Source: an uncultured Acetatifactor sp.
GTDB taxonomy: Bacteria > Bacillota > Clostridia > Lachnospirales > Lachnospiraceae
Reading direction: 5' to 3'
Length of the DNA: 64,000 nucleotides
Assembly: GCA_934436245.1 (NCBI GenBank)
Contig: CAKSAM010000003.1
Span: 62,001 to 126,000, forward strand
The stretch's first letter is position 1. Every line of letters begins with the position of its first letter. Shown here piece by piece: positions 34,758 through 64,000 of this stretch. Under the pieces are notes generated by a model. That model had not been told where the DNA came from. It ran no database searches and worked only from the letters and a program-made list of their open reading frames with translations. The translations under genes were made by a program, and so were the position numbers.

Positions 34758-34897
34758 GTTATCTGCGATGTCCTTTTGCACTCTCCCGGCCGTGCTCCGG
34801 TGTCCCGGCCACCTGCCGATAGTCAAATAGCTGCCAATTATGGCAGCCATTCTCCCAGTTCTATTTTGTTATCTTCTTTGCCTGTAATCTGAACTTA

Positions 34898-44313: not shown

Positions 44314-44973
44314 TTAAAAATTAATAAACATCTTATTTGCAAGATTCTCTGTCTTTATCCAAGCAAGTATTTCATCTGTCAGGTTGAGGATTGTTGCCTT
44401 TCCTTCACTAACTAACTTTAAAAATAACAGAATTTCAGAATCTTCATCTAAATCCAAATCTTCAAGAATTTTGTCAGCCTCTGCAATTCCCTGCTTAAGA
44501 TAATTATAATTGTCAATAGTCGTATTCCAAGACTCAGCTTTTTTTATTTTGTTTGTTGCATATATTGCTTTATTCTCATCCGGAATGATTCCCTTCACTG
44601 TATCCAAAAGACTTAAAATGTTCGTCGTTGCCTTTAGGTAAAACTCTGTCCACTCCTGACCTATAACCGTATATAATTTCTTTGATTCGGAAGAAATATA
44701 CTGTGTGGTAGCATTATTTGCAGCACCGATCTGGACAACCTTTTCGCATGCACCAAGAAAGCTCTTTAATGTATTTATGACATTAGCCGATGGCTTAAAT
44801 TCTGAATTTTCTACAGCAAGATTAACCTCGTCTATCATCTGCTTCAAATTAAGAACCAACTGTTTAAAATTATAATCTGCCATAGCTTGCTTCTTGGTAT
44901 CTGCAGATGCAGTCTCCATCTCATGGACAGTTTTCATATCGATAATGCATTCATTTAAAGTATCTATTAACAT
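44314..44973 (-). CDS. Helical protein at the end of the defense operon
   Basis: A 219-residue, acidic, mainly helical protein without a recognisable domain. It overlaps the upstream ATPase by seven bases, and GGAGGGGACAGT is a strong ribosome binding site. It is the last gene of the operon. It could be a regulator or helper of the ATPase; I do not recognise the family. Confidence 0.7.
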   Translation of the reverse strand: MLIDTLNECIIDMKTVHEMETASADTKKQAMADYNFKQLVLNLKQMIDEVNLAVENSEFKPSANVINTLKSFLGACEKVVQIGAANNATTQYISSESKKLYTVIGQEWTEFYLKATTNILSLLDTVKGIIPDENKAIYATNKIKKAESWNTTIDNYNYLKQGIAEADKILEDLDLDEDSEILLFLKLVSEGKATILNLTDEILAWIKTENLANKMFINF

Positions 44974-47900
44974 ACTGTCCCCTCCAATCTTGCCAAAATA
45001 GCACTGCAGTTAGTAATAGTAGCTTTCTCATTGTCGAATACATTTTCAGAGCCCGATGGATTGCTTCCTCCGCCAAGCTTTGCTTTTCTGACTTCGAGTT
45101 CAGCCTGAATCTTTGCAATATCAGCCGTGACTTTTTTCAATAACTGATCCAACTTCTCAACTTTTCTAATTGGATCCTGTGAAAATGCCATAATGCAATC
45201 CAACGCATTGCTTGTCTTCTGAGCCACAGCAATTTCTTTTATTGCCTTACTAGTTGAAGTTGAATACTTTTTCACTTCATCAAACAATTCCTGATCATAC
45301 TTTCCAGGCAGTTTGCCATCTTCAGCTGTTCTATAGAACTCAACAATCTTCTCCACCATATCTTCTATATCTTCATCATCAACATCTGTTGTGCCGAAGT
45401 TTTCTTTTATGGTAGTCATTATTAGTTCAGCCTTTGCAAGCTCATCCTCTTGTACTTTCTCAAGTCTCTCCAGAATCATGCGAAGATAGTCTCTTGCATC
45501 TCTACGCAGTTTTACCGGATCCACCAAATCTAATACCGCTGAATCTATAGATAGTCTCTCATTTTTAACGGTTCTTACCATTGCGTCAAATTTTTCTCTA
45601 TCTAAGAAAACCTGTGCATGGCTCTCGCCCTGAATAACATTGCAGTACTGTATAACAGTATCTCTGTTTATCTTATCATTCTCACTTCTTGTAATGATAC
45701 CTAGCAGAACATTCCATGCGTCTGAATGCGAATTTACGCCTAATCCTCTAATTCCATTATCTAGAATGTGTTCTGACTTTAATCCTTCTACAGTTGTTGC
45801 CTTTGATGATCCAAATAAAATAACTCTGTAGAATTCTGCCATCATCGCACACTTAAAATAATCAATCTCTCTATTTTCAAATGTTGTGATAGCTTCTATA
45901 AGTGGCTTCTTGATTTTTTCAGTCCAGAGCTGAACTCTGTAAACACGTCTATCAGCCCCGTCAAAATTCCAGCTACGCTTACCAAGAACATTCCACTCCA
46001 GAAAAGCTTCTATTACAGCTTGCGTTTCTCTGTCTGCCGGAAGCTTATAAAACATCATATCTTCGCCTTGCTTTTGGCGTTCGAAACCAACTAATCGATT
46101 TTTTACTTTTTTGATTTTTTCTATGTTATCCATAGAAACACCTTCTGCCTGCCAATCGATTGCTGAATATAAGAAGTTACACATATCCTCTCTTGCCTGC
46201 GAAACCAGAACTACATTTCCAGTTCTTGCACCGACATTTATTGTTCCTCCCAATATCCAATTTTCAATTGCCTGCAACGTATCATTTAATTGTGCTCGTT
46301 TTGCTTGGATTTGTTTTTCAGTAGCAAGTTGTGCAGGTGTCTTTATAACAGTCGAATTTGAGACCACTTGACTACGAGATGTGTTTGCTGGTATCACTTG
46401 TACTGGTTTTCCAATAATTGGCTTTCCATTTATCAACGGAAAGCTCATATCCTCATACACTTGCGTTGCAAGTCCTGCAATATATGTATTACCGCCATCT
46501 TGATAAATGTCGGTTGTAGCATCTCCCCAAATACACATAAATAGATACATTCTCTCAAACTGCTCATTTGAAACACCGGTTTTTTGAATTGCGTCTCTTA
46601 GACTTGAATTGATATTTGTATTAACAATCTTAAATCCTGGGAAGTTATCAAAATTCCAAAGTGCATCTCTAACCGTTTTTTCTACAACATCTCTTAACAA
46701 ATATCTAGGTGTTCTGTAGTTTTCCTGAAGAAGATTATTATATAAATACACAATTGCTCTTCTGGAGAACGGAAACAAATTTAGTTCTTTTCCTTCTTCA
46801 GTTGTTGCAACATCCCAGCCATTTCCTTGCTTTACTTCATGTACAGGCAAAGTATCTCCTGACCCATCCGAATTAGCCCATGTATCGACTTCATCTTTCG
46901 TCAAAGACATCGCATTTAAATATCTTCCAACAAATTCACATAAATCATCTTCACTAGATCCAAATACATCATCCGGAATTACAATAAACTGGGTAACTCG
47001 ATCCTTATAGTTATCACGGAAATTGCTCTTATAATATTCGCTGGTAGTGCCAATAATTGAAGATATCCTACACATACCTTCCTGTTCATAATCTCCGGTA
47101 TGCCAAGTAGTAAGCACATTTAAGAGTGCCTCATTAACACCAGTAAATGCTGTGATATCCTCTATTAATAGCGTTAAAGATTTTCCTTGTTTCTTTAACG
47201 CTTTTCTAATCTCCTTAAATACCTGCTCAAAATCTCCTGGCTCTAGGCCTGCACAACTCTGGATAACTATATCAACCTTTGAGTTCAGATACTTGGCAAT
47301 AGCATCAGCGACCTCCGGCTCCATATACAACTTTTCAAGCAAACGTACAGCTTTTTTGTCTCCTCCATCGTATTGAACTTTGTCACAAAAAGCAATATCA
47401 ACCTGAAAATCTTCGGGAATAAACTCTGCAACAACATCGCAGTTATCCTGAGAGTTGCTTTCTGCAACCTTAGAATAGATTCGTGCAATCGGTCCATCTT
47501 CAGCCATCATCCGAGCTTTAAACAATTCATTATTTAATAGTGGAGCAATTCTCTTCCTATCAGCATTATTAATATAGTCAATGTCTTCCCCTTTATCATC
47601 CTCAATTTCTACAATAAACTGATGATAAATGGCATTCATTAATTTACTCTCACTGATTGTAGATGTAGCATTAACCAAGCGTTCATAAAGATCCTTGTTC
47701 TGTATGAAAGCTACCTCTGGCTTTTCCAACAGCTGCTTTATTGTTCCCTTTAACGTGTTATCACTTCTTCGCACAAAAAGAACGACCTCACTCTCTGGTT
47801 TCTGTCTTTCAATTTTAGCGTCAAACCATCTAATCAAATGAGATTTTCCTGCACCACTGGATCCTATTACCAATACAAATTGATGCTGATCTTTTGGATT

Positions 47901-48086
47901 AAGAACTACTTTTTTGTAAATCTGTTCCTCAGTGTATGTCTTTGATGCTGCAGCTGAATCATATTCCTTTTGCAATTGAATATGCTTAAACGGAACATGC
48001 GTGGCCATAAAATCACCATATGAACTTGTAATAGTATCTATTCTTACGACTTCTGATAATCTTTGCTTAGCAATTTCTGAATTCAT
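44967..48086 (-). CDS. Large defense-island P-loop ATPase (DpdH-like)
   Basis: A 1039-residue protein. Walker A is GSSGAGKS at 75-82; a probable Walker B is LTLLIED at about 304-310; the ITAFTG segment follows. The C-terminal 600 residues are helical with no other motif. The layout and the neighbour genes resemble DpdH, the ATPase of 7-deazaguanine DNA-modification islands; this is inference from size, motif order and context. The gene starts after GGGGG and lies three bases from the 264-residue gene. Confidence 0.7.
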   Translation of the reverse strand: MNSEIAKQRLSEVVRIDTITSSYGDFMATHVPFKHIQLQKEYDSAAASKTYTEEQIYKKVVLNPKDQHQFVLVIGSSGAGKSHLIRWFDAKIERQKPESEVVLFVRRSDNTLKGTIKQLLEKPEVAFIQNKDLYERLVNATSTISESKLMNAIYHQFIVEIEDDKGEDIDYINNADRKRIAPLLNNELFKARMMAEDGPIARIYSKVAESNSQDNCDVVAEFIPEDFQVDIAFCDKVQYDGGDKKAVRLLEKLYMEPEVADAIAKYLNSKVDIVIQSCAGLEPGDFEQVFKEIRKALKKQGKSLTLLIEDITAFTGVNEALLNVLTTWHTGDYEQEGMCRISSIIGTTSEYYKSNFRDNYKDRVTQFIVIPDDVFGSSEDDLCEFVGRYLNAMSLTKDEVDTWANSDGSGDTLPVHEVKQGNGWDVATTEEGKELNLFPFSRRAIVYLYNNLLQENYRTPRYLLRDVVEKTVRDALWNFDNFPGFKIVNTNINSSLRDAIQKTGVSNEQFERMYLFMCIWGDATTDIYQDGGNTYIAGLATQVYEDMSFPLINGKPIIGKPVQVIPANTSRSQVVSNSTVIKTPAQLATEKQIQAKRAQLNDTLQAIENWILGGTINVGARTGNVVLVSQAREDMCNFLYSAIDWQAEGVSMDNIEKIKKVKNRLVGFERQKQGEDMMFYKLPADRETQAVIEAFLEWNVLGKRSWNFDGADRRVYRVQLWTEKIKKPLIEAITTFENREIDYFKCAMMAEFYRVILFGSSKATTVEGLKSEHILDNGIRGLGVNSHSDAWNVLLGIITRSENDKINRDTVIQYCNVIQGESHAQVFLDREKFDAMVRTVKNERLSIDSAVLDLVDPVKLRRDARDYLRMILERLEKVQEDELAKAELIMTTIKENFGTTDVDDEDIEDMVEKIVEFYRTAEDGKLPGKYDQELFDEVKKYSTSTSKAIKEIAVAQKTSNALDCIMAFSQDPIRKVEKLDQLLKKVTADIAKIQAELEVRKAKLGGGSNPSGSENVFDNEKATITNCSAILARLEGTVC

Positions 48087-48088
48087 AA

Positions 48089-48883
48089 TTAACCCCCTAT
48101 TGTAATATGGGTAACTGTAGTCTCAAGATCATGCCCCTCACATGGATGCATAGACCATATTTCTTTAGCGTCCAATCGATGTTCTGCCTTAATAACTCCA
48201 AGGTCATTCAGCATTCTGATTGCATTAGAAAAACCATAATTAAATGTCTTTGTATCAACTGCATTATGCAAAGCAATTCTAGCATACGGCATAACCAAAT
48301 CTACAAACTCATCGATTCGATACTCGGACTTCTTTTTAAGTTTTAAACTTTCAATAATATCTCTTAGAAATACTGCCGTATTAGGCAATAAAATACCTGC
48401 GGCTCCTGCCTGTGAATCGTGCATATATCCAATTCCTAAGAACGCCATCCAGAATCTCCACGCACGCATATCATCCTCTATGACTTTCTCACCAATATTT
48501 AGCCCCATTAAGTCACTCATTTTTGATACGCTATTGTGGGCAAGCACTTCCGTTCCCATATCCAAATATCCTTGAGTAACTTTGTAAAACAAACTGTCAG
48601 AAACAGTTTCAAGATGTGTATTAATATAACGCCTCATGTTATCAATACTTTTAACAACATCCTTATCTACTGCTAAAGAGATGGTATTTTCCTTTGTATT
48701 AATGAGCTGCAACTGCTCTGCCGCTGTTCTTACATTACCAAAATAAGATGTCTTTCCTCCAAGATTTTGTGGCTCAAGCAATAATTTCAACGAATTTTCA
48801 TCTATCGGCTTGCTTGCCACTTCTCTGCATAACGCATACACTCTTTCAGGTATTGCAGATGTTTGCATTCTATTTCCAAACAT
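48089..48883 (-). CDS. 264-residue defense-island protein (DpdG-like position)
   Basis: A 264-residue protein, largely helical, with a possible winged-helix-like region around WRFWMAFLGIGYMHDS. I do not recognise a domain. Its position between the RecQ-like helicase and the large ATPase is that of DpdG in dpd islands. It is separated from its neighbours by only a few bases. AAAGGAT precedes the start. Confidence 0.65.
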   Translation of the reverse strand: MFGNRMQTSAIPERVYALCREVASKPIDENSLKLLLEPQNLGGKTSYFGNVRTAAEQLQLINTKENTISLAVDKDVVKSIDNMRRYINTHLETVSDSLFYKVTQGYLDMGTEVLAHNSVSKMSDLMGLNIGEKVIEDDMRAWRFWMAFLGIGYMHDSQAGAAGILLPNTAVFLRDIIESLKLKKKSEYRIDEFVDLVMPYARIALHNAVDTKTFNYGFSNAIRMLNDLGVIKAEHRLDAKEIWSMHPCEGHDLETTVTHITIGG

Positions 48884-48887
48884 ATTT

Positions 48888-51356
48888 CTACATCCTTTCC
48901 AAAATATAACTATCTATCTTTGGCCCTTCAACCATCGCAGATATAGGTTTTTGCACCTTTTGAACAAAGTAATCCTCTTTAACAATATGTATTAAACGCA
49001 TATCTGTATTCTTATATTTTCTCAGCGTAGAGCAGAATTCATAAGCTTTGTCTACGTCGGAATTATATACGGCTATAACTCCACCGGAAATGTAATACGC
49101 CGATCCTTGACTACATAAATCTCTATATTCCTTAATACCAAGAATCATTAGATTGCTCTGTTTATTCATGTTAAGAATCAAATCAAAGTCACTTTCTATG
49201 CTTGTATCCTCAACAACAATTATGCTTGCGCCTGCGCTTATATATCGATTCATTAATGAATAATCATTCTCTTCTCCAATTACAAGCACTTCATTTTCGC
49301 CCTGGCATAATTTATTTAATTCAGCTGAAATTGTTTTCTTAGGCTCCTTTACAGGCAATAACAAAGGAAATTTTCCCTCTTCCATCATTTCCGGATATTT
49401 ATGCTTTGCACAACCTCCGCAATACATGGAGACTTTATCATATGTGGAATAGAACATTTCAGACCAGCAAATTCTTTCGTTAAAATCTATTGCGTTTTTA
49501 ATCCTTTTAATCTCTTTCTCAAAACCTGCAGATTCCCTATCTCTGATATCTGTTATAATCTGAGGAACATCCAACGCTTCGCTCCTCAACGCATCTTCCA
49601 ATATGTCTATGCGTATCTTATAACTTTCCTTATCCGCATCATAAACCATCGATTTGATGGAAATAAGGTTATGACGTCTAAGCAACAATATTACATAAAC
49701 ATTCCATTGAATATCGAGAGCATTACCATCATCATCTACGCCTTCCTTAGGCTTTACAGAAGTGTCTATTGTTATCATCCCTTTGAACCACGATGTTTTA
49801 GGACTCTTGTACATGTATACCCATCGCTTCCAAATGGTTTCCGGTTTTAATACAACATTCATTCTTCCATACGCAGAGTCTATGTCATCTACAGGATTAA
49901 TACACATAACGCTCAAACTTACTAAACCGTCACGTCCACCTCGACCAAGCTCCTGATAGTACTGATTTGGTGTATCCGGAATATACAAATGCAAAATGGT
50001 ACGAACATCCCCCTTATCAACACCTACACCAAATGCAGAAGTTGCTATAATTAGGTCAATTTTATTATCTGTCCAGTCTTTAATTATTTTTTCTCTCTCA
50101 GCAGATTTCGTATTTCCGGTAAAGGTTTCTAAATTATCAAGTCCTACAGCAATGAGTGCTTTCTTTATCTCCTCAGCCTCTTTAGGCGAATTGATATAAA
50201 CAACCATAGGATGTGGTAATTTTTTTACCAGCTCTACCATTTTATGTTTCTTGTCCAAATAGCTCTTAGCTTTAACAAGTAAATAACGTGGCTCTTTTCT
50301 TAATGCATCACATCTGACTTCAATCCACTTATCAGTTGATGCAAACATCTGCTTGAGCTTCACAACTGCAACTTTCGTATATGTTGCAGACAATAAAACT
50401 GTTCTGAGCTGAGAGTTTATTGCTAACAATTCATTACGCCATGGCTCAAGACATTGATAATCAACTCGAAAGAAATCTCCCCACTCAATTACTATATGAG
50501 CCTCATCTATAATCAGATTCTTCAAATACTTTTTTGCATTAGCCTCATTTATCATGCTGACAAATTCAGTATTTCTAATAAGCGCTTCCGGAGATATAAA
50601 CAACAGTCTTGCAGTTTCACTTCTGATTGCATTTTTTAGTGCGTTTTTTCGTTCTAATTCAATACCACTGTAATAGCAAAAAATTTCATTGTCAGCATTA
50701 TGCTTAATGTTATTTTTAGCATTACGCACCTGATCTATAGCTAAGGATACCGTAGGAACAATAACTATCGTTAGACCCTGCTGCTGGTATGCCATAGTCT
50801 GTGTAATCAAACTCTTTCCTCCTCCTGTTGGAAGAGAAACTAAGGTTGTATATCCCTCTGGGGTATTTAATGCTCCAAATACTGCAAGCTTCTGCTCTAA
50901 TGACTTAAATTCTTTATATTGTGTCAAGCTGTATATATAAGCATTATTTCCGTAAAAAATGTCTTTCTGCTTTTCTGTATCTCCACTAACCTTTTTTCTC
51001 TGAAACGCTTGATCCACAAAAAAGGAATCAACATAATTCGGCAGTTCTAGGTTGGCGTAATACTTACCTTCTGCGTTACACAGGATTCCGTATTCATTCT
51101 CTGTAGGGATTAATCCTTCTGGAACAGCTATTTCATTTTGGAAAACCAGCAAATAATTTCTGAGAGAACATAAAAAGACATCTTTACTTGCTCTCCCAGA
51201 CATAAATTTTTCAAAATAGATTGTCAATCTTATAGCCGTATTATACATAAAATGATTTATTGCATCATTATCCCCTGCAAAGCCAGGGAAGGCACCATTT
51301 GAATTACTATTTATAAAGTTTTCAACATAGCTTTCAATAGCCTTTGTGTCCATCAT
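48888..51356 (-). CDS. RecQ-like superfamily 2 helicase (DpdF-like)
   Basis: An 822-residue helicase. Motif I is SLPTGGGKS at about 175-183, DEAH at about 284-287, LSATYT is motif III, and ATSAFGVGVDKGD with QELGRGGRDG gives motifs V and VI. These are RecQ-type signatures. A cysteine cluster (CW...MYCGGCAKHKYP) resembles the RecQ zinc region but is shorter. The first 170 residues are not RecQ-like. It is coupled to the SNF2 gene by ATGA at 51353-51356. It is likely the DpdF counterpart. Confidence 0.85.
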   Translation of the reverse strand: MMDTKAIESYVENFINSNSNGAFPGFAGDNDAINHFMYNTAIRLTIYFEKFMSGRASKDVFLCSLRNYLLVFQNEIAVPEGLIPTENEYGILCNAEGKYYANLELPNYVDSFFVDQAFQRKKVSGDTEKQKDIFYGNNAYIYSLTQYKEFKSLEQKLAVFGALNTPEGYTTLVSLPTGGGKSLITQTMAYQQQGLTIVIVPTVSLAIDQVRNAKNNIKHNADNEIFCYYSGIELERKNALKNAIRSETARLLFISPEALIRNTEFVSMINEANAKKYLKNLIIDEAHIVIEWGDFFRVDYQCLEPWRNELLAINSQLRTVLLSATYTKVAVVKLKQMFASTDKWIEVRCDALRKEPRYLLVKAKSYLDKKHKMVELVKKLPHPMVVYINSPKEAEEIKKALIAVGLDNLETFTGNTKSAEREKIIKDWTDNKIDLIIATSAFGVGVDKGDVRTILHLYIPDTPNQYYQELGRGGRDGLVSLSVMCINPVDDIDSAYGRMNVVLKPETIWKRWVYMYKSPKTSWFKGMITIDTSVKPKEGVDDDGNALDIQWNVYVILLLRRHNLISIKSMVYDADKESYKIRIDILEDALRSEALDVPQIITDIRDRESAGFEKEIKRIKNAIDFNERICWSEMFYSTYDKVSMYCGGCAKHKYPEMMEEGKFPLLLPVKEPKKTISAELNKLCQGENEVLVIGEENDYSLMNRYISAGASIIVVEDTSIESDFDLILNMNKQSNLMILGIKEYRDLCSQGSAYYISGGVIAVYNSDVDKAYEFCSTLRKYKNTDMRLIHIVKEDYFVQKVQKPISAMVEGPKIDSYILERM

Positions 51357-54300
51357 TTTTTCACCATCCAAACAAAGCATGCTGACTCTAACCTAACTGT
51401 TGGTTTCGCAAGGCTCTCCAGCACAATTTCATATATTTCTTTCAATTTATCATAGTTTTCAAGTTCTTGATTATAGAATTCTGACGTAGCTATCATCGAT
51501 GTAAGAATTCTATCCATTTCCGCCTTAGCCTCTGTGATGTGCGATCTTTCTCTAAGTGCTTTCAGGGCCTTGTCTTTACTAACCTTTCTTGATTTCTTTA
51601 CAAAATCCACCCAACGCTCTTGAGGATAAGCACTTCTAAAGTAGTCGATATTAGCAGCTTTATACTGTGAGAAAATATGTAAAAAACCTTCACTTCTACT
51701 TCTTCGTCCAAGGTGATCAATCTCATCCTTGCTATTCTCAAAATCACGCTGAATCATATTATTGAATTCTCTTATTACCTTATCATCTGAGATTTCGCCC
51801 TCAGCACGAATTCTAACCGGTACTTGAACCTGTTCAACCGCCAGGTAGTTCCTAAACGCACTTAAGTAAGATAAAGGAATTCCTTTCTCAATAAGTAACT
51901 TTTCATTCGGGCATAATGACCACGTATAAACAAATCCTGTCCAATTAATACTTGCTTTCATTGCAAAGGCTGCGGCTTGTCCTCTGCATGATCTCATTGC
52001 ATTGTCTACAATACAATCAAATATATCATCGCCAGGAGCAAAGAAATGAATATAATCATTCTCTATAGCTTTCTTACGACTAAATGTTCCATCAATTGAA
52101 CGACTGTAATGCGAAATATTTTTATCAGCTTTATCCTGTCTAAGTTCATGTATTTTACTAATAAATTGGTTTTGTCTCTGGGCAAAATAAGAGTCCCAAT
52201 CCGGTGGAATCAATAGTGAATTCTCAGCAGATTTCGTTGAAAATGAATTATCATTAAAACTAATAATCTCATCCTTTTCCTCAATATCTCTGAATCCAGA
52301 AAGCATAGCCCACTGCAACATTGCGTCTGTAAACATCTTATTTTCATTACGGTTATAGTATTTAACCAAACTTATCAATTCCTGATTCATTGGTCTGTAA
52401 ATATATGCTGCTGTATCAAAGTGCTGTTCTTCTCGTACTTCTTCTTTTAACTTCGCAGATCTATCAATTACATTTTGAATTTCGTTTGTTAAGCCAAATC
52501 TAAAGTCTTTGATAATAGCAGCTACAATTGCCGTATTAATATCATTCATGATGATCTCAAGTCCACTTAGTGAATGATTAAATATTTTTAATCCATTATC
52601 CCAAAACTTAAATAATTCTTCCTCTAGTGTTTCTTCTGCGTAAGGAACCACTGAAACTATAGGTCTACTACTTTCTCGGCCCATACGATCCAGTCGCCCA
52701 ATTCTCTGTTCTATAGCATTTGCATCCCACGGTAAATCAATATGTACAACATAATCTGCGCACTGAAAATTTCGGCCTTCTCCTCCAGACTCATCGCAAA
52801 GCATGATGGTGCAATTCCTATCATTTTGAAATTTACATACATTGACCTCTAACTCATCTGCTGACATTCCTCGCCTAAAGCAACTAAATCCATCCTCAGT
52901 ATAGAAGTCCGTAAGCATCTCCTCAAAAATATCAAATGTTGCCCTATAATTAGTAAACAAAACTATTTTTGAACCACTCGCATACTCATCCAGATAATAC
53001 ATAGTTTTCACAATTCTTGAAGTATGCTCTTCCGGTTCATCTAGTACATCTACAATATTTTCCGCAATGTCCTGCTCATACATTTTCCATCTGCGAAGAT
53101 TCTCTTTTAAGCTTTCAGGAATAGCTACACCGCCTCCTTCAACAAGCTTAACCTGTTCTTCAAATGCCCACGGAGAACTAAAGAATGCGCCAAATAGCGG
53201 TTTAAATATGTTATCAAACTCTACTTCTGTTAATTCCTTTTCTGTAATCCATGTCACTAAATCCTGATATGCTCCGTATTCATAGAAATTCTTATCTGGG
53301 TCTAGCGCATATGGCAGAGCTGTCAACTGACGTTCTGGCAAATCCTCCAAGGTATCTCTTCGATTACGAATAATATTTTTCTCAATCTGATAGTTCTCAC
53401 ACAAATAAGAAATTGCCACCTTAAAATAATGTAAACCCATATCATCGCCATCAAAATCTGCCTTTTCATACATTTCCTTGAGTATTTCATCTCCAACCAT
53501 TTTGTACAATTTCTTAAAACCGCTCAAAATATCTTCGAAAAAATCTTCACTATCCTCATTATCATGCGGATCTTCTTCTGCCTCTACAGAATCACCAAGA
53601 ACTTCATCTAGATCTTCTATATTTGATAAAACCATTGCAGCATTTTGGGTAATATTTCCTTGTTTTTCAACCAATTCATCAAATTGCTCTTTACTGCAAT
53701 TATCATACTTATCTGGAAGAATAAGACGCAGTAAATCTAAGTAGTCTGATCTTTTTTGTTGAACTGGTGTCGCACTGAGTAATAATAAGTTACTAGAGTT
53801 TTTACTTAATTTATGAAATGCATCATAATAAGCCCTATATCTTAAGAGTCTATGTGCTTCATCAATGATAGTAAAATCCCATCCTCTATTGCATTCTTTT
53901 TCTGCTGCCTTCTCTAATTCAGCAAAAGTAATATGATTATTATTTGCATTCTCGCCTTCAAACAAATCAAACTTCAGGAATAATTCTGTCTTCCATTGTT
54001 CGAGTAATGAACCTGGTACAACAATCAAAGCATTAACATCACTGTGTCTTGAAAAATACACTTTAAGTATTGATGCAGCCTCGATTGTCTTACCCATACC
54101 AACCTCATCAGCCAGCATATACCTACATACATCATTTTGAAGACATCTCATAATAGATTTAAGCTGATGTGGCAAAAGAAAAATTTTACATCCAGCAAGC
54201 TCTTTAAATCCCATAATGGAATTATCAAGCACATTCATTGTCTTTGTGACAATGCTTCTGCCAAATAGCCAACATGGATTTTGAAATTCATAATTTTGCA

Positions 54301-54691: not shown

Positions 54692-54709
54692 AGTCTCACC
54701 CCTTCATCT

Positions 54710-57373
54710 CTAGTTTTTTCCATATTTATATGGTTCTAAGCATATTTCTCTAACTGCACAATACTGGCACCATTCATCGCAAGATTTAGCATAACCGGTT
54801 ATATTTACCCTATTACTACTCAGTACAGTATCAATTTCATCCTGCGTAACGTCTTTGAAATTACCCGAAAAGCTACCATCTCCATTACCTAACTGAAGGT
54901 ATATGAATTCTTCTCTCTTCTTCATGTAAATATCATCAGTCACACTTATCATTGGAAATGTGGTATTATTTTTTAACACGCTTTTCTGCAAATAATTCTT
55001 GGCGTTCGTAATAATATCCATACGCTCCGTATGCATGTCTTTTACAAATTCAAATTTTCTTTCTAATTTCTTATATTCGTCATTTAATGTAACAAATAAA
55101 ATATCTTCTGTGGCGATCTGTCCTTGAAGAGTTCTTCTGGCTGTATTTTCCAAAAGTATTTCTAAATATTTCAGCAACAAAAAATGATCTCTAAAAACAG
55201 CCCTTTTCTCGATTGTAGATTCTAGCAAAAAGCGGTACTTACAAATTCTGTACCTAAAGAAATCAAATTGGCCATAATTATTTGTAGGGTCAATATCAAG
55301 ACGCAATTGTCTTATTGCTTCTGGGAGCTTCTCTACTGTTTTTTCTTCCGGATACACCTTTTTAGCTTCTAATATTTTCATAAGATAGAACATTTCATTC
55401 TCTTTATCATCTACATTCTTAACAAAGCTCAGTTTAAACTTCACACGATTGAACTGAAGACCATAAATCAAGGCATATCTCTTAAAATTCTTATACTCTC
55501 GTCTAGATTTTATATACACCTGATATTTCCAATCTATTGGATCTTGTGCAACTTCAAAAAAGGTAACATCTAATGGCCAAGGAAAACGATCTCTATTTGT
55601 AACGTTCATATCGTTATCTGACAAACAGGCAAAATGGTATACAATGTCCTTATCCTGCTTTCTACTTTTTAGGATATCTCCATCAATCTGCTCAAAATCC
55701 CTAACAATCCAGTTTGCACTTAAACCCTTCTTAGATTCTTGCTTTAAGTAATATGCCATTGTCTCTTTTAGAACATCGAAGGAGCCTGTGGCATCTATAT
55801 TATCAACCTTTTCTAATCTTATAAGAACTCTTTTTACTACGTCTCTAAAATCATCCTCAAGATCTTCAGCCTCAAGTATTCTTGTTTCAAGAAATTCTTT
55901 TATTCTCTTGTAAAACTTCTTGAAATTATTCTCTGTATCTTCAAAATCTGCATAAAATAGTTTCGTAATCTGATCTAATTGTTCCAATGCAGAAACAAGT
56001 GTATCTATTTCTTCGCTTGTTACATCAAAATAAACTAATCTGCTTCCAATTCGCTTTTCATTTGAATCTTTCTCCGCCTTGCCGATTCTTTTCTTTAATT
56101 TTCCTAATAATTCCGTTATTTGCTCAATCGTCTCGGCACGTACAAAAAACTCTTTAGTCCTGTTAAAAATAGAATACAATTTTCCTGGCGTTTCTTCCTT
56201 AATAAACCCAGAATTCAAGCATTCCACAATATCATTCATGTTTTCAATCCGAATTCCACCTTCATCTGCATTCCACATGGTTGTAATAGATAGAAAGAAA
56301 TGACCTATCGGGTACGTAAGAAAGTGTCTCTCACCAAATTGGCCAGGATAGTATATTTTGAGAATATTATTAACGCTATTATTCGCAGCATAAAACTGCT
56401 CCTGCATATAATATAGGGTAGATCGTTTAGCTTCTTTATCTCTAGCCTGTCTTTTCATTGCATCTTCAAAGACGCTTGCTACATAGCTTGCAAATTCAGT
56501 ATTATTATCAAACTCAATTATTTCAAAAAGACACTCTTCTTCATTCTCCTTAGAACGGCCCTCAATCAAATTAGCCATTCTATCAGCTAATAAATTTCCA
56601 GCATAACTGTTGGCTAATAGTGGATTAGGTCTGAATTCGTTAGTGAACTGGCTCTTTATTGGCAAATCAAAGGATGAATATACATCTATCCACGTCTGAT
56701 AAACATTCTTATACTGCTGCTGGTAATTAAATAAAAGAATAACTCTTTTGTACTTTGCAACTAATTCAATTGTTTGAAGAATCATTGGCGTAAATTGATG
56801 CACTCCATGAACAACAATAGTATCTACATCAACACTACTGATATCTACATTTTCTCTTTCCAATTTCATCCCATCTCTGATTGCATTTTCAATTTCTGTT
56901 TCAGAGAAATGTTTCTTTATCTTAAAAGCCTGAACCAACTCAGATTCTTTTATGATTTTGTATATTCCAACAAGATGTCGTTGTTCCTCTGTCATTAATT
57001 CAGTTCGCATCTCTTCAATACTCATGTCAAGTTCAAACAAAATACGTAAGCTATTACTCAATTGCTTTCTGTTGAATCTTAAAGACTGCTTTATCTTTTC
57101 AGAATTTTCCGCAATATCTAACCTGTTAATAGCCTCATCAATAACGGTGTATTGTTTTATCTTACACTCGCTACTTTCCCAGTAAGCAAAAAGACCTTTC
57201 ACCAAATTTTCAACAGTAGAAACCTTTCCCGCTGTCATTTTCTCATATGTACCCATCATTCCATTAGCCATAGTTTGTGAAACACAAAAATGCGGACAGT
57301 TTTTAATGGAATCCCAATATAATTCCTTATTTATTTCATATGGATTACTGTATGTATAAATAGAAAACGGCAT
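54710..57373 (-). CDS. AddB-like protein with C-terminal Cys cluster
   Basis: An 887-residue protein. Residues about 190-240 (VDTIVVHGVHQFTPMILQTIE, then RVILLFNYQQQYK) resemble the inactive helicase part of AddB. The C-terminal CDEWCQYCAVREIC (C-x3-C-x2-C-x5-C) is like the Fe-S ligand set of AddB and Cas4 nucleases. I could not see the catalytic D-x-K of a RecB-type nuclease. It lies three bases from the UvrD-like gene and may form an AddAB-like complex with it. Confidence 0.65.
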   Translation of the reverse strand: MPFSIYTYSNPYEINKELYWDSIKNCPHFCVSQTMANGMMGTYEKMTAGKVSTVENLVKGLFAYWESSECKIKQYTVIDEAINRLDIAENSEKIKQSLRFNRKQLSNSLRILFELDMSIEEMRTELMTEEQRHLVGIYKIIKESELVQAFKIKKHFSETEIENAIRDGMKLERENVDISSVDVDTIVVHGVHQFTPMILQTIELVAKYKRVILLFNYQQQYKNVYQTWIDVYSSFDLPIKSQFTNEFRPNPLLANSYAGNLLADRMANLIEGRSKENEEECLFEIIEFDNNTEFASYVASVFEDAMKRQARDKEAKRSTLYYMQEQFYAANNSVNNILKIYYPGQFGERHFLTYPIGHFFLSITTMWNADEGGIRIENMNDIVECLNSGFIKEETPGKLYSIFNRTKEFFVRAETIEQITELLGKLKKRIGKAEKDSNEKRIGSRLVYFDVTSEEIDTLVSALEQLDQITKLFYADFEDTENNFKKFYKRIKEFLETRILEAEDLEDDFRDVVKRVLIRLEKVDNIDATGSFDVLKETMAYYLKQESKKGLSANWIVRDFEQIDGDILKSRKQDKDIVYHFACLSDNDMNVTNRDRFPWPLDVTFFEVAQDPIDWKYQVYIKSRREYKNFKRYALIYGLQFNRVKFKLSFVKNVDDKENEMFYLMKILEAKKVYPEEKTVEKLPEAIRQLRLDIDPTNNYGQFDFFRYRICKYRFLLESTIEKRAVFRDHFLLLKYLEILLENTARRTLQGQIATEDILFVTLNDEYKKLERKFEFVKDMHTERMDIITNAKNYLQKSVLKNNTTFPMISVTDDIYMKKREEFIYLQLGNGDGSFSGNFKDVTQDEIDTVLSSNRVNITGYAKSCDEWCQYCAVREICLEPYKYGKN

Positions 57374-57376
57374 CCC

Positions 57377-60300
57377 TTACACCTCCAAAAACTTGCACCA
57401 GCTCATATTGTATTTTTTATCTGTATCCTTCATCCAAATACAGTTTCTAATTGCTCGTGTTAAAGCAACATAAAGAATTCTTGCTTCTTCACAAATTCTT
57501 TGACCAATTTCTTCCTGAGAATCATAATTGGAATTACAATCTTTCTTGTTCTCATCCACCTTAATTGAATAAGCCAGTTTAGAGTTGCTATAATTAACAT
57601 CCGTATTCGCTTTTTTCAAATTATCAATAGCCTGTCCGGTAAACGGTAAGATTACGGTTCCATATTCAAGTCCTTTTGCTTTATGAATTGTAGTACAAAG
57701 AAACTTTATCCCAGTCTCATCTTCTCCAGTTGCACGAGCCAATTCCTGTTGGCCTGTTAAAATGTTTATCTGAATAGAATTGGCTATCACTGTCAGGGTT
57801 AAATAATCCACACTATATGACTTAACAATTTTTTCAATCAGTAGTTCATAGTTCGACTTGTAAAATCTCTGTTTATCCAGATCTTCACTATACTTATTCC
57901 ATGGCTGCAGGGTCTCAAAAATTGTTTTAAGTACCACAAGAACAGGATTAGCTTGTACATATGCAACTAATCCATTCCATGTTTTATTCATCTTTTCCAT
58001 AAAGTATTTATCTAGTGCTTTAACTAATTTAGATGTCTGATTCTGCTTCTCTTCATTTTGTAGTCCTTGATACCACAATGGCATATCAATATAATTTGAT
58101 TCAATAAAGTTCACTAGACAAACTGGATCATCAGGATTTGTTAGCGCAATCAAAAGCTTACAAAAGTCAATAGTTGAATCCAATTGGTACAAGTCTCCAC
58201 CTACTTTTGTTTCGATTTCCACCTCTTCGTCCAGTTCCTTGCAACCTTTTATTATTTCTTTAATCTGCCAATTTTCTCGCACAAGAATAGCGATTGTCTT
58301 TTCTTCTTTGCTAAGTTTTCTTGTTTTCTCTAATTCAATAATCTTGGATTTTTCTCTTTTCAATAACCCAAGCAATACCTCTAATTGTTCATTATTTTTC
58401 CCATGATATGGAACACACTCAAACAATTCGTCTTCATTGGCTCCACCATTCAGGTTGCTAACCAAATGATCTGCATCGTAAACGTATGGGAGCCACGCTT
58501 TTGCACCCATTCCCTGGAATATCTCATCCATCGCTGCAAGAAGCCTTGAGTCTGTTCTATAATTTGTGTTTATTGTATACTCTTCCCATCTGTCAGGAGT
58601 TGCATTAAGTCTCTTGAATGCACTTATTGTTGCCCCACGAAAACGATAGATACTCTGCTTTAAGTCACCTACAACAAATAAGTTACATTCCTTACCTATG
58701 AGCTGTTGGATTTTCAAAAATGAATCAATCTGCGCATCATCGGTATCCTGAAATTCATCTATAAAAATATATTTATAGTCCAAGTGAGTCTTATCTTTAT
58801 CTTTCTGATTAACTACATCATTTAGGACAATCATAGTTTCACGAAGGTCTATCTTATTGCTTTCTTGAATTTTTGTAGCATACTCAATTTCTGCAGCAAT
58901 AATAACCTCCATTATTATTTCATTGAAAAATGGAAGTAATCCCGGAGCATTGCCCAACTCCTCCTCTTTTATCTTTTTAATGTCGATGCTCTTGTTATAA
59001 AGCTGATTTGAAAATTCCACCAACATTCTTCTGAACTGATATAAGGGTAACTTTATTTCATTAATAAAATTAGGATTCTCTGCTTCTTTTTTAGCAATGA
59101 AATCATTTAGATATTTCTCATATATCTGTTCTTTTATATAGTCACCTGATGTAATCGCAAAGTTATCTCCTAGTCCCATTTGCATAGATGCTTCTTTTAT
59201 AATCTCGCGTGCAAACTTATGAATCGTCGAAATTCGCATAAAATCTGTGTTTTCTATGTATTTCAAAAACTTAGGATTCGATGTTAAAACAAAATAGTTG
59301 ATAAACATCTGCTTAAGTCTATTTTTCATATTGTCTGCAGCATCATTAGTAAAGGTAACCATAGCAATATCATCAATTAGGTTAACTGTCGGGTTCTCAA
59401 ACTTATTACAAAGAAAAGCTATTCTTGAAACCATTGAATATGTCTTTCCTGTTCCTGCGCCAGCTCTAACCAAAATATTCTTTGCTGTTGATGCGTGTTC
59501 AATAAAATATTGTTGAATATTAAATTTTGTTTTTTGAGATAACTTTTCCAGAATCGCTCTTTCTTCAGAAGTACAATCACCTTCATATATAGTTATTGCT
59601 TCTTCAAAAAAATTCGACAAATCTTCAACAACATACAATTCAAAATTAAAAATTCTAAATGAATTACACTTTACCGAAAATTCATTGTTGGCATCCTTTT
59701 TTAATCGCAGATTATTCTTTTCAGCATATACTCCTTTATCATTCAACTCTCCCTCTAGAACATAGAGAATCGAGTCTGCCGCATCTTCCGTCTCTACAAA
59801 AACAACGGTTTTCGTTCCTTTTAAATAGCTATCTACAATATCATGAATCTGTTTTTTTGCTATTTTCTTTACATCAGCAATGACAACAGAATACGGAACT
59901 TGATTACTTAATTCCATAGGTTTTTTCATCTGAAAATGAGGCTCAAAATGTTGTCTAATCTTTCCCATTAATTCCTCATCCATCTCTGCATGTGGAATAG
60001 ATTTGCATTGATTATAGGCATTAAGCAATTTATCTCCTAGTCTGATAGGATCAGACAAATCTTCCTTAAAAAGCGTCAGTGCCTCTTCAGATACAATATC
60101 CAGTCTTTTATCGTAGTACTCTTTTTTTGTAATAAACGGATAACAAACCAAATCAAATATTAGTGGGCTGACATTATATTTTTCGCTTATCATATTAAGT
60201 AAGCCAAATCTATATGCTCTGGCTTGTTTCTTAGGCGACTTTTCTGGTTTGTCATAACCTTGAATTATTATTTCATCAACGCCAGCAACATCAAAAATGC

Positions 60301-60493
60301 TGTCAGCAATCCAGCCTTTTACCTCGATAACAATCATGCCTATGTTCTTCATAAGGACACAGAAGTCAAATTCTCGACCATTTACTTCACGCCCGTTATA
60401 TACAATTGCCTCACCTGGAAGATTGTCCGACAAACTTTCCCATACTTTGCCTTCCCCTTTATATTCAGGTTTTTTATCAATCATCATAGCCAT
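57377..60493 (-). CDS. NERD-UvrD superfamily 1 helicase
   Basis: A 1038-residue protein. Residues about 20-150 form a NERD nuclease-like domain: EFDFCV (Asp43) and VIEVKGW (Glu57, Lys59). The UvrD helicase follows: Walker A AGAGTGKT at 344-351, FTNDAADNMKNRL, IFIDEFQDTDDAQ, VGDLKQSIYRFRGA, and a late motif VI with LYVALTRA. It is a probable AddA-like partner of the next gene. GGGGGT precedes the start. Confidence 0.9.
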   Translation of the reverse strand: MAMMIDKKPEYKGEGKVWESLSDNLPGEAIVYNGREVNGREFDFCVLMKNIGMIVIEVKGWIADSIFDVAGVDEIIIQGYDKPEKSPKKQARAYRFGLLNMISEKYNVSPLIFDLVCYPFITKKEYYDKRLDIVSEEALTLFKEDLSDPIRLGDKLLNAYNQCKSIPHAEMDEELMGKIRQHFEPHFQMKKPMELSNQVPYSVVIADVKKIAKKQIHDIVDSYLKGTKTVVFVETEDAADSILYVLEGELNDKGVYAEKNNLRLKKDANNEFSVKCNSFRIFNFELYVVEDLSNFFEEAITIYEGDCTSEERAILEKLSQKTKFNIQQYFIEHASTAKNILVRAGAGTGKTYSMVSRIAFLCNKFENPTVNLIDDIAMVTFTNDAADNMKNRLKQMFINYFVLTSNPKFLKYIENTDFMRISTIHKFAREIIKEASMQMGLGDNFAITSGDYIKEQIYEKYLNDFIAKKEAENPNFINEIKLPLYQFRRMLVEFSNQLYNKSIDIKKIKEEELGNAPGLLPFFNEIIMEVIIAAEIEYATKIQESNKIDLRETMIVLNDVVNQKDKDKTHLDYKYIFIDEFQDTDDAQIDSFLKIQQLIGKECNLFVVGDLKQSIYRFRGATISAFKRLNATPDRWEEYTINTNYRTDSRLLAAMDEIFQGMGAKAWLPYVYDADHLVSNLNGGANEDELFECVPYHGKNNEQLEVLLGLLKREKSKIIELEKTRKLSKEEKTIAILVRENWQIKEIIKGCKELDEEVEIETKVGGDLYQLDSTIDFCKLLIALTNPDDPVCLVNFIESNYIDMPLWYQGLQNEEKQNQTSKLVKALDKYFMEKMNKTWNGLVAYVQANPVLVVLKTIFETLQPWNKYSEDLDKQRFYKSNYELLIEKIVKSYSVDYLTLTVIANSIQINILTGQQELARATGEDETGIKFLCTTIHKAKGLEYGTVILPFTGQAIDNLKKANTDVNYSNSKLAYSIKVDENKKDCNSNYDSQEEIGQRICEEARILYVALTRAIRNCIWMKDTDKKYNMSWCKFLEV

Positions 60494-60514
60494 GATGTTT
60501 ACCCCCGATACTTA

Positions 60515-61336
60515 TTACTCAAAGAAATCCTCGTTGATTTTATAAACCGTATATGTCTGTACTTTCTCAAGTCCGATGCCATATTTAATCATTAATTCTG
60601 CTAATAAATCTCCGTCTATAAGTTTCAAACTCTTTTGTTGCTGCTTTTCAGCATAGTTCCTCGCTTCTTTTGTAAATGTAGATGTTGTGATGAAAACACC
60701 CTTCTGCACATCCTGCATAGCACCTACAAAGGCTTGTAATAATGGTCTTCCAATTGTATTACTACTATCATTCCGCTTTGCTTGGATATAAATCTTACTT
60801 AATCCAAGTTTATCCTCATAGATTACACCATCGACACCGCCATCATGTGATTTTCCAATTACACATCCAGACAGCTCATCAGAACCATAGCCCATCTCTA
60901 AAAGCAGATTGACAACCAATTGTTCAAAAAAGCTAGGGTGGCAATTCAAAATGTGATCTAATATCTGTCGTTTTATATTGTTCTTATAAAACAGATATGT
61001 AAGATCTATCTTTTCCTCTGGTAATAAATCATCCTCAGAAGCAGATTTCTTTTTATTCTTTGGCTCGTCCTCATTCACCACTTCTTGACCTTCTTTAACC
61101 AATGCATATAAGTTCCGTGTGCCTTTTTGTCCTACAATCCTAAAATATTTAACTGGTGAAGCCCCTGGAAAATTTAATCCTTCACAATGGCAACGTAGTT
61201 TTGCATTGACTGCTGCTTCTGGATCTTTAGCTCCAAAATGATATAAGTCTCTTTCCTTTATTTTCAAATACGCTTCTTTATATGTTAAGCTTTCATGCTC
61301 TTTCAGCACTTCAACCAATGCATCTACAATTCTCAT
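60515..61336 (-). CDS. Mrr-type restriction endonuclease with HARE-HTH
   Basis: A 273-residue protein. Residues 1-80 are a HARE-HTH domain (MRIVDALVEVLKEHESLTYKEAY...YFRIV). The Mrr catalytic domain follows: FEQLVV (Glu138), GGVDG (Asp169) and IYIQAKR (Gln185, Lys187). Mrr nucleases cut modified DNA. In this operon it is a candidate for cleaving or sensing modified or unmodified DNA. AAGGTGAGTAT precedes the start. Confidence 0.88.
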   Translation of the reverse strand: MRIVDALVEVLKEHESLTYKEAYLKIKERDLYHFGAKDPEAAVNAKLRCHCEGLNFPGASPVKYFRIVGQKGTRNLYALVKEGQEVVNEDEPKNKKKSASEDDLLPEEKIDLTYLFYKNNIKRQILDHILNCHPSFFEQLVVNLLLEMGYGSDELSGCVIGKSHDGGVDGVIYEDKLGLSKIYIQAKRNDSSNTIGRPLLQAFVGAMQDVQKGVFITTSTFTKEARNYAEKQQQKSLKLIDGDLLAELMIKYGIGLEKVQTYTVYKINEDFFE

Positions 61337-61347
61337 ATACTCACCTT

Positions 61348-62541
61348 CTACAAGTCACTTTTTAGAATATTAATAAGCTGACGAATTTCTTCCTCAGTAG
61401 TGTATTTATTTAACGTAATTCTCAACACCTTTGACACTTTGTCTTCCAATCCCAAAGCTGTTATTACATATGAAGGTTCACCCGCACTACACGCAGACCC
61501 CGTTGATAATGCAAACTTGTCGCTAATATGTTTTATAAATCTCTCATTGTTAAAATCCTTCCTATCAACAACTATGCTTATTATTCCAGGTAGCCTTCTT
61601 TCAGACGGATTAGTTAATGAAATATCAGGAATTGCATTTATACCTCTCACCATAACCTGATCCAACTGCATAATTCTTCGTTCATTTGCTTTCAAATCTC
61701 GTACGGCTATTTCTGCTGCTTTACCAAATCCGACAATATTATGAACAGCTAAAGTTCCTGCCCTAAAACCGTTTTCTTGTTCTCCACCATGCATAAATGC
61801 TGTAATAGGAGGAATACCATATGCATCACTCTTTAAAAAAGCAGCTCCTACTCCTTTAGGCCCATAAATTTTATGTGCTGAACATGATGCAAAATCAATA
61901 CCCAAGTCATGAACATCTATTTCCATTTTCCCAATGGCCTGCGTTAAATCAGAATGAATTGCAATTCCCTTTTTTATGCATAACTTAGCAATTTCAGAAA
62001 TATTACTAATAGCCCCAACCTCATTATTTACATAGATAACCGACACCATTGCTGTATTATCCTTAATTGCCTTCTCAACTGCTGTTGCTAAAATCTCTCC
62101 CGTCTCTGTAATGTCAATGAAAGAAGCTTCATATCCTCTATCAACGGATTTTTTTCCACCAAATAGAGTAACTGTAGGATCATTATTAGAATACAAATCA
62201 CCGTTAAGATATTTACACGTATTTAAAGTTGCTTTATGTTCGGCTACCGATGTGATGATATGGTTTTTTCCATCTCCGTAATATCTGCGATAATCCATAT
62301 ATCCTTTTATGATAAAATTTGTACTTTCGGTTGCTCCTGCAGTAAAAATTATCTCTTCTGGTTTTGCGCCTATGAGCTTAGCCACCTGAATACGAGCTTC
62401 TTCAACAGCATTCCGTGCATTAACAGCCTTGCAATAATACTTGCTTGATGGATTTCCATATTCTTCTCTTAGATAAGGCAGCATGGCCTCGAATACTTCT
62501 TCGTCAACCGGCGAAGTTGCACTATTATCAAAATAAATCAT
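61348..62541 (-). CDS. IscS/DndA-type cysteine desulfurase
   Basis: A 397-residue class I cysteine desulfurase. The PLP lysine is Lys224 in SAHKIYGPKG; the catalytic cysteine is Cys351 in STGSACSAGEPSYV, on the flexible loop typical of IscS, NifS and DndA. Its partner genes are not Fe-S assembly genes but helicases and nucleases, so it probably supplies sulfur to DNA or to a cluster in the neighbouring enzymes. Start and upstream stop are adjacent, which suggests coupling. Confidence 0.92.
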   Translation of the reverse strand: MIYFDNSATSPVDEEVFEAMLPYLREEYGNPSSKYYCKAVNARNAVEEARIQVAKLIGAKPEEIIFTAGATESTNFIIKGYMDYRRYYGDGKNHIITSVAEHKATLNTCKYLNGDLYSNNDPTVTLFGGKKSVDRGYEASFIDITETGEILATAVEKAIKDNTAMVSVIYVNNEVGAISNISEIAKLCIKKGIAIHSDLTQAIGKMEIDVHDLGIDFASCSAHKIYGPKGVGAAFLKSDAYGIPPITAFMHGGEQENGFRAGTLAVHNIVGFGKAAEIAVRDLKANERRIMQLDQVMVRGINAIPDISLTNPSERRLPGIISIVVDRKDFNNERFIKHISDKFALSTGSACSAGEPSYVITALGLEDKVSKVLRITLNKYTTEEEIRQLINILKSDL

Positions 62542-64000
62542 CTAGTCTTTCACCCTCCATTCTGGCGGATTATTTTCTTTAGAATATCTCAGTTCTAACT
62601 TTGAGACTTCTTCTATGTACCTCTTCAATTCTAGTAAAAAATCATTTGTATAATACTCTTTGACAGCTTTTTTTGCTGCCATTTTTGATTTAATTTCATT
62701 AAGGTTTCTAGGGTATTTGCCATTGATAAAAATCTCTTTAGCTTTCTTATAATACTGATATACAAGCTCATTTGCAAAAATAGTCTTGCCTTTCTTATCA
62801 AGCTCCTCTATCTTTTCTACAATGGTTCCATCTCCTAAGGCGCTATTTTCATGTTTATCTAAATATAAATAATTTATGGGATATGAAATAATCTTTTTAA
62901 CCTTTGCAGGACATTTTATTATAGCGACCTCACCTTCTCCATAATGAAACTCATAATTTTCGCTTTGATTTACAAAAAAATGTTCTGCCGAAATTGTTCT
63001 ATCCTCAAGATACTCTTTTAATCGACCTTCATTTGGCACATATAACTCTTTTTTTCCTGCCGTTGGTAAAATATACTGCCTTACAGCAAATATGTGTTTT
63101 GGCAAAAATTGCCCACTTGTTTTTGTAATCATTTTATTAAGTTTTGTTGGTTTATCATATATAATTTTATGAATATCCTCATTATATTTTTGTGTCGCTA
63201 ATTCTCTTAGTTCCTTCATCCAATCTTTACTTAATACTATACGAACCAACTGTGGAGAAGCCTTTTTGCCTTGAGTGGTCACAAACAAAATAGCTAAAAC
63301 ATATATGTAATATATTATTTTATAATCTTGTTCCTCTGCCACTTCCTTATTCATCACCTCTAAAAAATACTTTGTTGCAAGAATTTTGGGGACTTCGTTA
63401 TCCATTTTTAAAATTGTATTTAAAATGTAATATGCTGAATTTGCCACCGCACTATTTTTTCCCCCAAAATATATCAAAAATTCAGGATAAATCATGCCAT
63501 GAGAATCAGATATTGCTTCAAAGCATTTAACACACGCCTCAATTTCTTCCATAGCCGTTTCACAAAAATGAGCATCATCTATAGCCTCAATAATATGTGT
63601 ACCTATCTTGATATCCTCATTATCACTTCCTATATTTTTGGTCAATTTTAACTCTGGTGTTAACTTTGTAAGCTCATATTTAAGATATTTATTAATAACA
63701 CACGCAAAGAAATGGAAATAGAACGTGTTATTAGGATAATTTGTTTCGTTTAGATTCCATCTTTTTATCGCCCTCTGAACATTTTTCCATTTTTCTGTCA
63801 TAAGCTGATAATCTTTTCTAAACAATTCCGCTTTTAATATATCAATACTATCCAATTTTACAGCTTTAGCATTTAAATCTAAGTAATAATCAACGCATAT
63901 TGAATTTGAAGTTATTCCTCCACTTTCATTGCTCAAAATAACATTAAAGCTACTTCTTAACAATTTATCAAGCAAAGTAGCCCTCTTTCTAGGAGACACG
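62542..64000 (-). CDS. DUF262/GmrSD-like protein, 5' end cut by window
   Basis: 485 residues are visible; the frame is open to the right edge and a GTG at 63999 is likely internal. The stretch SICVDYYLDLNAKAVKLDSIDILKAELF matches the end of a DUF262 domain (the lN-x-L-x2-D-x-LK pattern), and the C-terminal half (PINYLYLDKHENSALGDGTIVEKIEELDKKG...) resembles a DUF1524-like region. Together they suggest a GmrSD/SspE-type NTPase-nuclease. No HNH catalytic motif is obvious. The call is moderate because the N-terminal half is off the window. Confidence 0.6.
   Translation of the reverse strand, partial: VSPRKRATLLDKLLRSSFNVILSNESGGITSNSICVDYYLDLNAKAVKLDSIDILKAELFRKDYQLMTEKWKNVQRAIKRWNLNETNYPNNTFYFHFFACVINKYLKYELTKLTPELKLTKNIGSDNEDIKIGTHIIEAIDDAHFCETAMEEIEACVKCFEAISDSHGMIYPEFLIYFGGKNSAVANSAYYILNTILKMDNEVPKILATKYFLEVMNKEVAEEQDYKIIYYIYVLAILFVTTQGKKASPQLVRIVLSKDWMKELRELATQKYNEDIHKIIYDKPTKLNKMITKTSGQFLPKHIFAVRQYILPTAGKKELYVPNEGRLKEYLEDRTISAEHFFVNQSENYEFHYGEGEVAIIKCPAKVKKIISYPINYLYLDKHENSALGDGTIVEKIEELDKKGKTIFANELVYQYYKKAKEIFINGKYPRNLNEIKSKMAAKKAVKEYYTNDFLLELKRYIEEVSKLELRYSKENNPPEWRVKD

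Follow-up and report, generated by a model that had tools for sequence, protein, structure and literature searches.

The described systems closest to the locus treated here are the phosphorothioate (PT) systems of the Dnd type (DndABCDE), with DndFGH, PbeABCD and HARE-REase as known restriction partners, and the Dpd islands, whose mark is a 7-deazaguanine base. Passages of PMC11931770 state that many PT-bearing strains have no known restriction genes, passages of PMC7464106 put their share at nearly half, and both take the missing genes as a hint of other PT roles. Rakesh et al. 2024 (PMC10853773) reported many nucleases beside Dnd genes, including a HARE-HTH restriction endonuclease directly downstream, and the main text of that paper contains neither 'RecQ' nor 'UvrD' nor 'AddB'. 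We analysed a stretch of 64,000 nucleotides from an uncultured Acetatifactor sp. (Lachnospiraceae; contig CAKSAM010000003.1, positions 62,001 to 126,000), here called the window, in which ten open reading frames (ORFs), all on the minus strand, fill positions 44314-64000. We consider it likely that this operon belongs to a PT restriction-modification system that has its restriction engine in common with Dpd. The engine, hereafter the module, comprises relatives of DpdE to DpdI and a pair formed by a NERD-UvrD protein and an AddB-like protein. In the literature searched (titles, beginnings of abstracts and passages, with supplements and most subscription journals outside), no description of Dnd joined with DpdE-H was found, and within that range the module appears to be a Dnd restriction partner not described before.

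Judged from their sequences, the central genes of the operon are relatives of DpdE, DpdF, DpdG and DpdH and, by position, of DpdI, i.e., of the restriction genes of the 7-deazaguanine (Dpd) system. For the SNF2, RecQ-like and large ATPase genes, PADLOC and NCBIfam agree on the names DpdE, DpdF and DpdH; the E-values are strong, but all scores lie below the curated NCBI cut-offs. The DpdE-like SNF2/RapA-type helicase (1112 residues, 51353..54691, minus strand, as are all genes of the operon) scores 348.6 bits with NF041062 (cut-off 500), and its conserved residues include G198, G200, K201 and T202 as well as D277, E278 and H280. The DpdF-like RecQ-family helicase (830 residues, 48888..51380) reaches 454.3 bits with NF041063 (cut-off 550) and has three cysteines that are kept in 24 of 24 aligned rows; some of the alignments used for residue conservation hold two rows from one and the same genome, owing to overlapping stretches, and the DndC alignment has L006 as its reference. 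The DpdH-like AAA ATPase (1039 residues, 44967..48086) scores 322.6 bits with NF041065 (cut-off 450) and 1.4e-47 with PADLOC DpdH, and its Walker A motif is intact, with residues conserved at 97% or more. Between the F and H genes lies a DpdG-like winged-helix protein (264 residues, 48089..48883): 12 of the 13 members of its family match NF041064 at E <= 10 (best 1.8e-11), the window's own member giving no match. The last gene (219 residues, 44314..44973) has no Pfam family at E 0.001 and directly follows the DpdH-like gene, the place that DpdI takes in Dpd islands; its profile, built from nine sequences, gives E 4.7e-23 with the 222-residue gene behind the dpdH-like one in a Dpd island of Paenibacillus and a weak match (E 7e-6) with the 282-residue counterpart in Enterobacter. 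The initial annotation had called this helicase set unfamiliar from Dnd and Ssp systems; no such combination was found in the literature searched, but the kinship with the Dpd restriction genes had been missed.

The module shares with the Dpd islands of the Paenibacillus plasmid pART37 and the Enterobacter plasmid pPOL9A both homology and the gene order DpdE-F-G-H-I. It differs from them in that DpdA was found in none of 16 module-related genomes at E <= 0.001 and in that the engine has a Dnd modification cassette as its neighbour (the search did not cover DpdJ, DpdK or DpdD). The pART37 island, which has dpdA, dpdJ and dpdK, is matched by the module profiles at E, F, G, H and I with 915.7, 540.8, 129.9, 586.4 and 72.1 bits, and further along it carries an AddB-like gene (4.4e-14) and a UvrD gene (1.6e-61), the latter beginning, by eye, straight with the helicase part. 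On these profile matches, the pART37 island is a close outside relative of the module. In pPOL9A the profiles match E, F, H and, weakly, I, the annotated dpdG being missed by the module's DpdG-like profile; in a Deinococcus island they match E, F, G and H. The AddB/NERD-UvrD pair was not seen in the Enterobacter and Deinococcus stretches examined. The simplest history would be that a Bacillota Dpd-type engine became coupled to a different mark.

The desulfurase is the operon's link to sulfur chemistry. This DndA-type protein (397 residues, 61348..62541) matches PADLOC DndA at 1.9e-121 and SspA at 2.1e-120, scores 357.3 bits with TIGR03235 (cut-off 480), and keeps K224 and C351 in 25 of 25 rows. 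A scan of one genome per species (84,980 species) with patterns from the AddB-like alignment returned 15 loci; it used two short peptide patterns and misses divergent members. DndC exceeded the curated cut-off in 15 of the 16 genomes that carry the AddB-like gene (in L006, e.g., 413.5 bits against 290.4), DndD (TIGR03185) did so in eight of eight relatives tested and DndE (PF08870) in nine of nine, and DndB was named by its curated family in the members tested. Across 22 loci the Dnd genes, as dndCDE-dndA or dndBCDEA, adjoin the module, upstream in nine, downstream and codirectional in nine and convergent in four, with DndB present in the downstream and convergent loci. Among the 15 scan loci, dndC-dndD-dndE-dndA precedes the helicases in nine (behind a helix-turn-helix gene in L003 and L006), and in L004, L005 and L011 dndB-C-D-E-A comes immediately after the 219-residue gene, in the same or in convergent orientation. 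These last three had been considered loci with the helicase set alone, which proved wrong, the full dndBCDEA lying just downstream of each. The protein lists of the AddB-like and DndD families (120 entries each, from totals of 934 and 1093), taken for the window's own kin, have 12 lengths of longest contigs, each at least 10 kilobases (kb), in common, against a mean of 0.125 (maximum 3) in a shifted control. Blautia producta and Lacrimispora sp. are among the names given for relatives of these two proteins. One member of the window's DUF262 family, P0140, consists of a DndD N-terminus joined to a DUF262 C-terminus. The initial annotation, which had seen no iron-sulfur (Fe-S) carrier nearby, expected the sulfur of the desulfurase to go to DNA or to a cluster protein, and DNA-sulfur genes to lie to the right of position 64000; the DndC, DndD and DndE genes beside the block in relatives support this. 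A likely cluster protein within the set, the AddB-like one, had been overlooked. Since it occurs alongside DNA-sulfur genes, DNA and Fe-S need not be alternatives.

The AddB-like protein (887 residues, 54710..57373) has as its best Foldseek match AddB (4ceh_B, E 4.5e-7, from a low-confidence model), and Cys711 and the group Cys869-x2-Cys872-x5-Cys878 are constant across all 20 aligned rows. On these cysteines it is a likely cluster protein; AddB itself is a 4Fe-4S protein, and C-x2-C-x5-C is the spacing of its iron staple. Its neighbour (1038 residues, 57377..60493) joins a NERD nuclease (Pfam 4.8e-8) to a UvrD-type SF1 helicase (4.4e-43), with D43, E57, K59, K350, D579 and E580 present in 22 of 22 aligned rows, the window included. 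The arrangement resembles AddAB, RecBCD and AdnAB in that a UvrD-type motor adjoins an AddB/RecC-like partner with the C ... C-x2-C-x5-C pattern. It differs in that the nuclease is an N-terminal NERD domain, and the stretch of the AddB-like protein from Cys711 to Cys869 has no D, E or K that is kept in 90% of 18 rows. A restriction endonuclease of the HARE-HTH and Mrr_cat type (273 residues, 60515..61336; Mrr_cat 3.6e-32) precedes the pair; HARE-HTH was found in five of five members at E <= 1 (best 3.2e-6, window 0.018), and the gene is present in some relatives only. A HARE-HTH-Mrr gene beside Dnd genes is shared with the Dnd systems of PMC10853773, as described in its main text. The relatives likewise share DndC, DndD, DndE and DndA with those systems, and they differ in the partner, which is the DpdEFGHI-like genes with the NERD-UvrD/AddB-like pair and, in the stretches scanned, not DndFGH or PbeABCD. 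Mixing of modification and restriction parts across systems is also known from BREX type 4, BRC and BRIGADE hybrids, which according to passages of PMC12839542 and PMC12458937 use other gene sets (PglZ and YprA were not searched separately here).

Statistical linkage between the module and DndC is strong in the Lachnospiraceae. Among 397 genomes, DndC exceeded the cut-off in 20 and the AddB-like gene was found in 13 (one weak), with both in 11 (Fisher p 1.5e-14); these counts keep as non-co-occurring G306, with the weak pair-only locus L090, and G022, with L085 at a contig edge. Without two genomes known beforehand (G005, G010), both occur in 9 of 11 (Fisher p 4.4e-12). In all 11 co-occurring genomes the AddB-like gene and DndC lie on one contig less than 15 kb apart and are accompanied by DpdE- to DpdI-like genes. 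Within the roughly 14-20 kb inspected around DndC, the 20 Dnd islands of the family had one partner each without overlap: the module in 11, DndFGH in four (assigned from DndH and DndG; DndF was not looked for) and PbeABCD in five (PbeA/PbeC/PbeD). DndH was in addition searched genome-wide in the 13 module genomes, 12 of which gave none and one (G005) a 43-residue match at E 3.8e-4; PbeA at 1e-8 had no match in the module stretches scanned and was not searched genome-wide. Beyond this family, the phylum sample (398 genomes) contained a strong AddB-like match in its centre genome only, with three weak partial matches, and two genera had the gene in 2 of 12 and in 1 of 25 genomes, counting the centres. 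A plasmid search gave one AddB-like match, a pair-only locus in Geobacillus. In two islands of the Pbe type, a DUF262-like protein stands directly upstream of dndC (L094:6026-7852, L099:5315-7219), the place taken by dndB elsewhere.

We reconstructed trees of DndC and DpdE to compare the histories of the two cassettes. In the DndC tree (31 rows; long branches in L098, L055, L084 and L094, and a program warning on one join), from which three of the 15 scan loci were left out (L010 and L013, cut by contig ends, and the decayed L016), the 22 module-bearing rows did not form one clade (AU p 2.7e-7). The DpdE tree (22 rows, built with a simpler model) placed L005 and L011 as sisters (100/100), whereas their DndC genes (L055, L054) belonged to two different clades, which long, fully supported branches separate. 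By DndC the upstream-type rows form one clade (100/99), and by DpdE they require at least three changes. These topologies show that modification and restriction cassettes have been re-paired several times while staying paired, which argues for a functional link.

Several observations weigh against the reading as a PT system. The desulfurase is the sole Dnd gene inside the window, the DndC match in G012 is partial with a stop inside, and among the 16 AddB-like genomes no DndC was found in G015, which has a decayed locus. The dpdF-like gene in L009 and the mrr gene in L015 are each split in two frames, and the structure model of the AddB-like protein has low confidence. A second family, sampled with 157 genomes, has the AddB-like gene in its centre genome only; of the five genomes with DndC there, one has the module, two have Pbe, one has DndH and one, on a contig of 13.9 kb, shows none of the three partners. 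Against this background three other explanations were weighed. If the desulfurase served Fe-S assembly for the AddB-like protein (and for DndC), the operon would be a helicase-nuclease defence without DNA sulfur. DndA is able to load the cluster of DndC, whose cysteines are constant over all 23 rows (two of them from L006), the four cysteines of the AddB-like protein are equally constant, and in the window and in L010 a gene other than dndE precedes the desulfurase. We nevertheless regard this explanation as highly improbable, because 22 loci have DndC, DndD and DndE with the desulfurase, the gene of which directly follows dndE there. In L010 the gene in question is the end of a 233-residue frame (L010:2-703) without a Pfam family and without a match to DndE or to the DUF262 proteins compared.

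The Dpd-like module and Dnd might also be independent neighbours in defence islands, since clustering is common among defence genes generally and, in L001 and L090, the NERD-UvrD/AddB-like pair has no recognised Dnd or DpdE-I genes around it. However, the distance of less than 15 kb in every co-occurring genome, the absence, in the stretches scanned, of any island that joins the module with DndFGH or Pbe, and the survival of the pairing through repeated re-assortment make mere clustering quite unlikely. The pair-only loci (L001:13562-18873, on the Geobacillus plasmid, and L090:5080-10210) may represent an independent defence unit of two genes that supplied the module with its pair. A third explanation sees in the module a PT-tolerant set for DNA end processing and repair, by which cells with PT-marked DNA survive breaks, and not a restriction engine. 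Repair is the usual setting of RecQ-like, SNF2 and AddAB-like parts, and PT linkages resist many nucleases; but the module occupies the place of known restriction partners in other Dnd islands, and the dpdD-K operon, in which its relatives are found, is termed the restriction operon in PMC11888242. We hold this explanation to be as improbable as Fe-S assembly.

In the PT restriction-modification system that we favour, DndA would take sulfur from cysteine, and DndC, together with a scanning pair of DndD and DndE, would place it at short motifs of the DNA backbone; the genes for the latter three were seen in relatives and are presumed for the window. The relatives of DpdE-F-G-H-I may form a complex that scans and unwinds DNA and triggers the response, with the winged-helix DpdG as the probable DNA reader distinguishing self from non-self. 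DNA without the PT mark would be passed from this complex to the NERD-UvrD/AddB-like pair and degraded, which could protect the host against phages. The HARE-Mrr nuclease might act as an added cutter at some loci and DUF262 as an optional extra. It is also conceivable, though rather doubtful, that the Dpd engine works independently of the chemistry of the mark, be it the base mark 7-deazaguanine or the backbone mark sulfur, and that the NERD-UvrD/AddB pair digests from ends, PT sites serving as self signals as Chi does for AddAB, so that sparse PT would protect the whole chromosome. With the module in 11 of 20 Lachnospiraceae Dnd islands, some gut Dnd strains regarded as restriction-less may have an unrecognised restriction partner. 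If the favoured explanation is true, one engine serves two unlike DNA marks, and the function of DpdE-I becomes testable through mark swapping.

The operon runs off the right edge of the window within the gene of a DUF262 protein (62542..64000). Only the C-terminal 485 residues of this protein are inside the window, and the domain that the initial annotation had named falls outside it; the full-length, 657-residue P0121, which has the domain (PF03235) and is found on database contigs of up to 133,496 bases, contains the window's part at 100% identity. P0121 matches PADLOC HEC-06 (1.6e-14), Orf5 (6.9e-13) and SspE (2.5e-7). Weak DUF262 matches to P0121 were found in 62 of the 397 Lachnospiraceae genomes (best 1.7e-14, 31% identity), a relative with 30% identity lies beside L003, and searches of viral contigs with P0121 and with the AddB-like alignment gave no match. 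Four database proteins carry in-frame DUF262 joins in operon order, to DndD (P0140), DndA (P0170), Mrr and DpdE (P0131) and DpdH (P0129), and a fifth DUF262 protein, P0128, ends in an unrelated stretch; the joined proteins may be assembly artefacts or real deletions. The other structural claims of the initial annotation held: ten same-strand ORFs with junctions of -28 to +21 bases (one of them 0) make up the operon, its GC content is 0.350 against 0.473 for positions 1-36000 (0.470-0.490 in windows of the same size within that range), and the calls of Mrr_cat, NERD with UvrD, SNF2, RecQ-like DEAD, AAA and a DndA/IscS-type class-V aminotransferase were borne out. What had been a guess for the AddB-like gene is now backed by the fold match of the low-confidence model and the four conserved cysteines.

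Further genes were seen around the loci of relatives. L016 is a decayed copy in which the AddB-like, DpdF and DpdH genes are truncated or fused and DndA is kept, with no DndC found in the genome. In the upstream-type locus L060 (G005), a 439-residue DndB-like protein (L060:10511-11830; 22.7% identity, E 7e-15) follows the DpdI-position gene. At downstream-type loci, a protein with an HNH_4 domain or a similar one directly follows dndA: at L052:12990-14195 (where alone the domain was tested), with relatives in L078, L079 and L087, and at L054:11051-12193, with relatives in L100 and L101. In Lacrimispora amygdalina (L004:1516-5390 and L053:2665-12639), a topoisomerase III, a tyrosine recombinase and an ORF of 3324 residues lie beside the module, which suggests a mobile element. 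In the window itself, a 1150-residue gene (40512-43964, minus strand, GC 0.372) immediately follows the operon in the same orientation and has no Pfam family at E 0.001, and farther away, also on the minus strand, are a peptide-deformylase-family gene (38954-39382) and a 1138-residue protein resembling an AAA and M41 protease (31434-34850).

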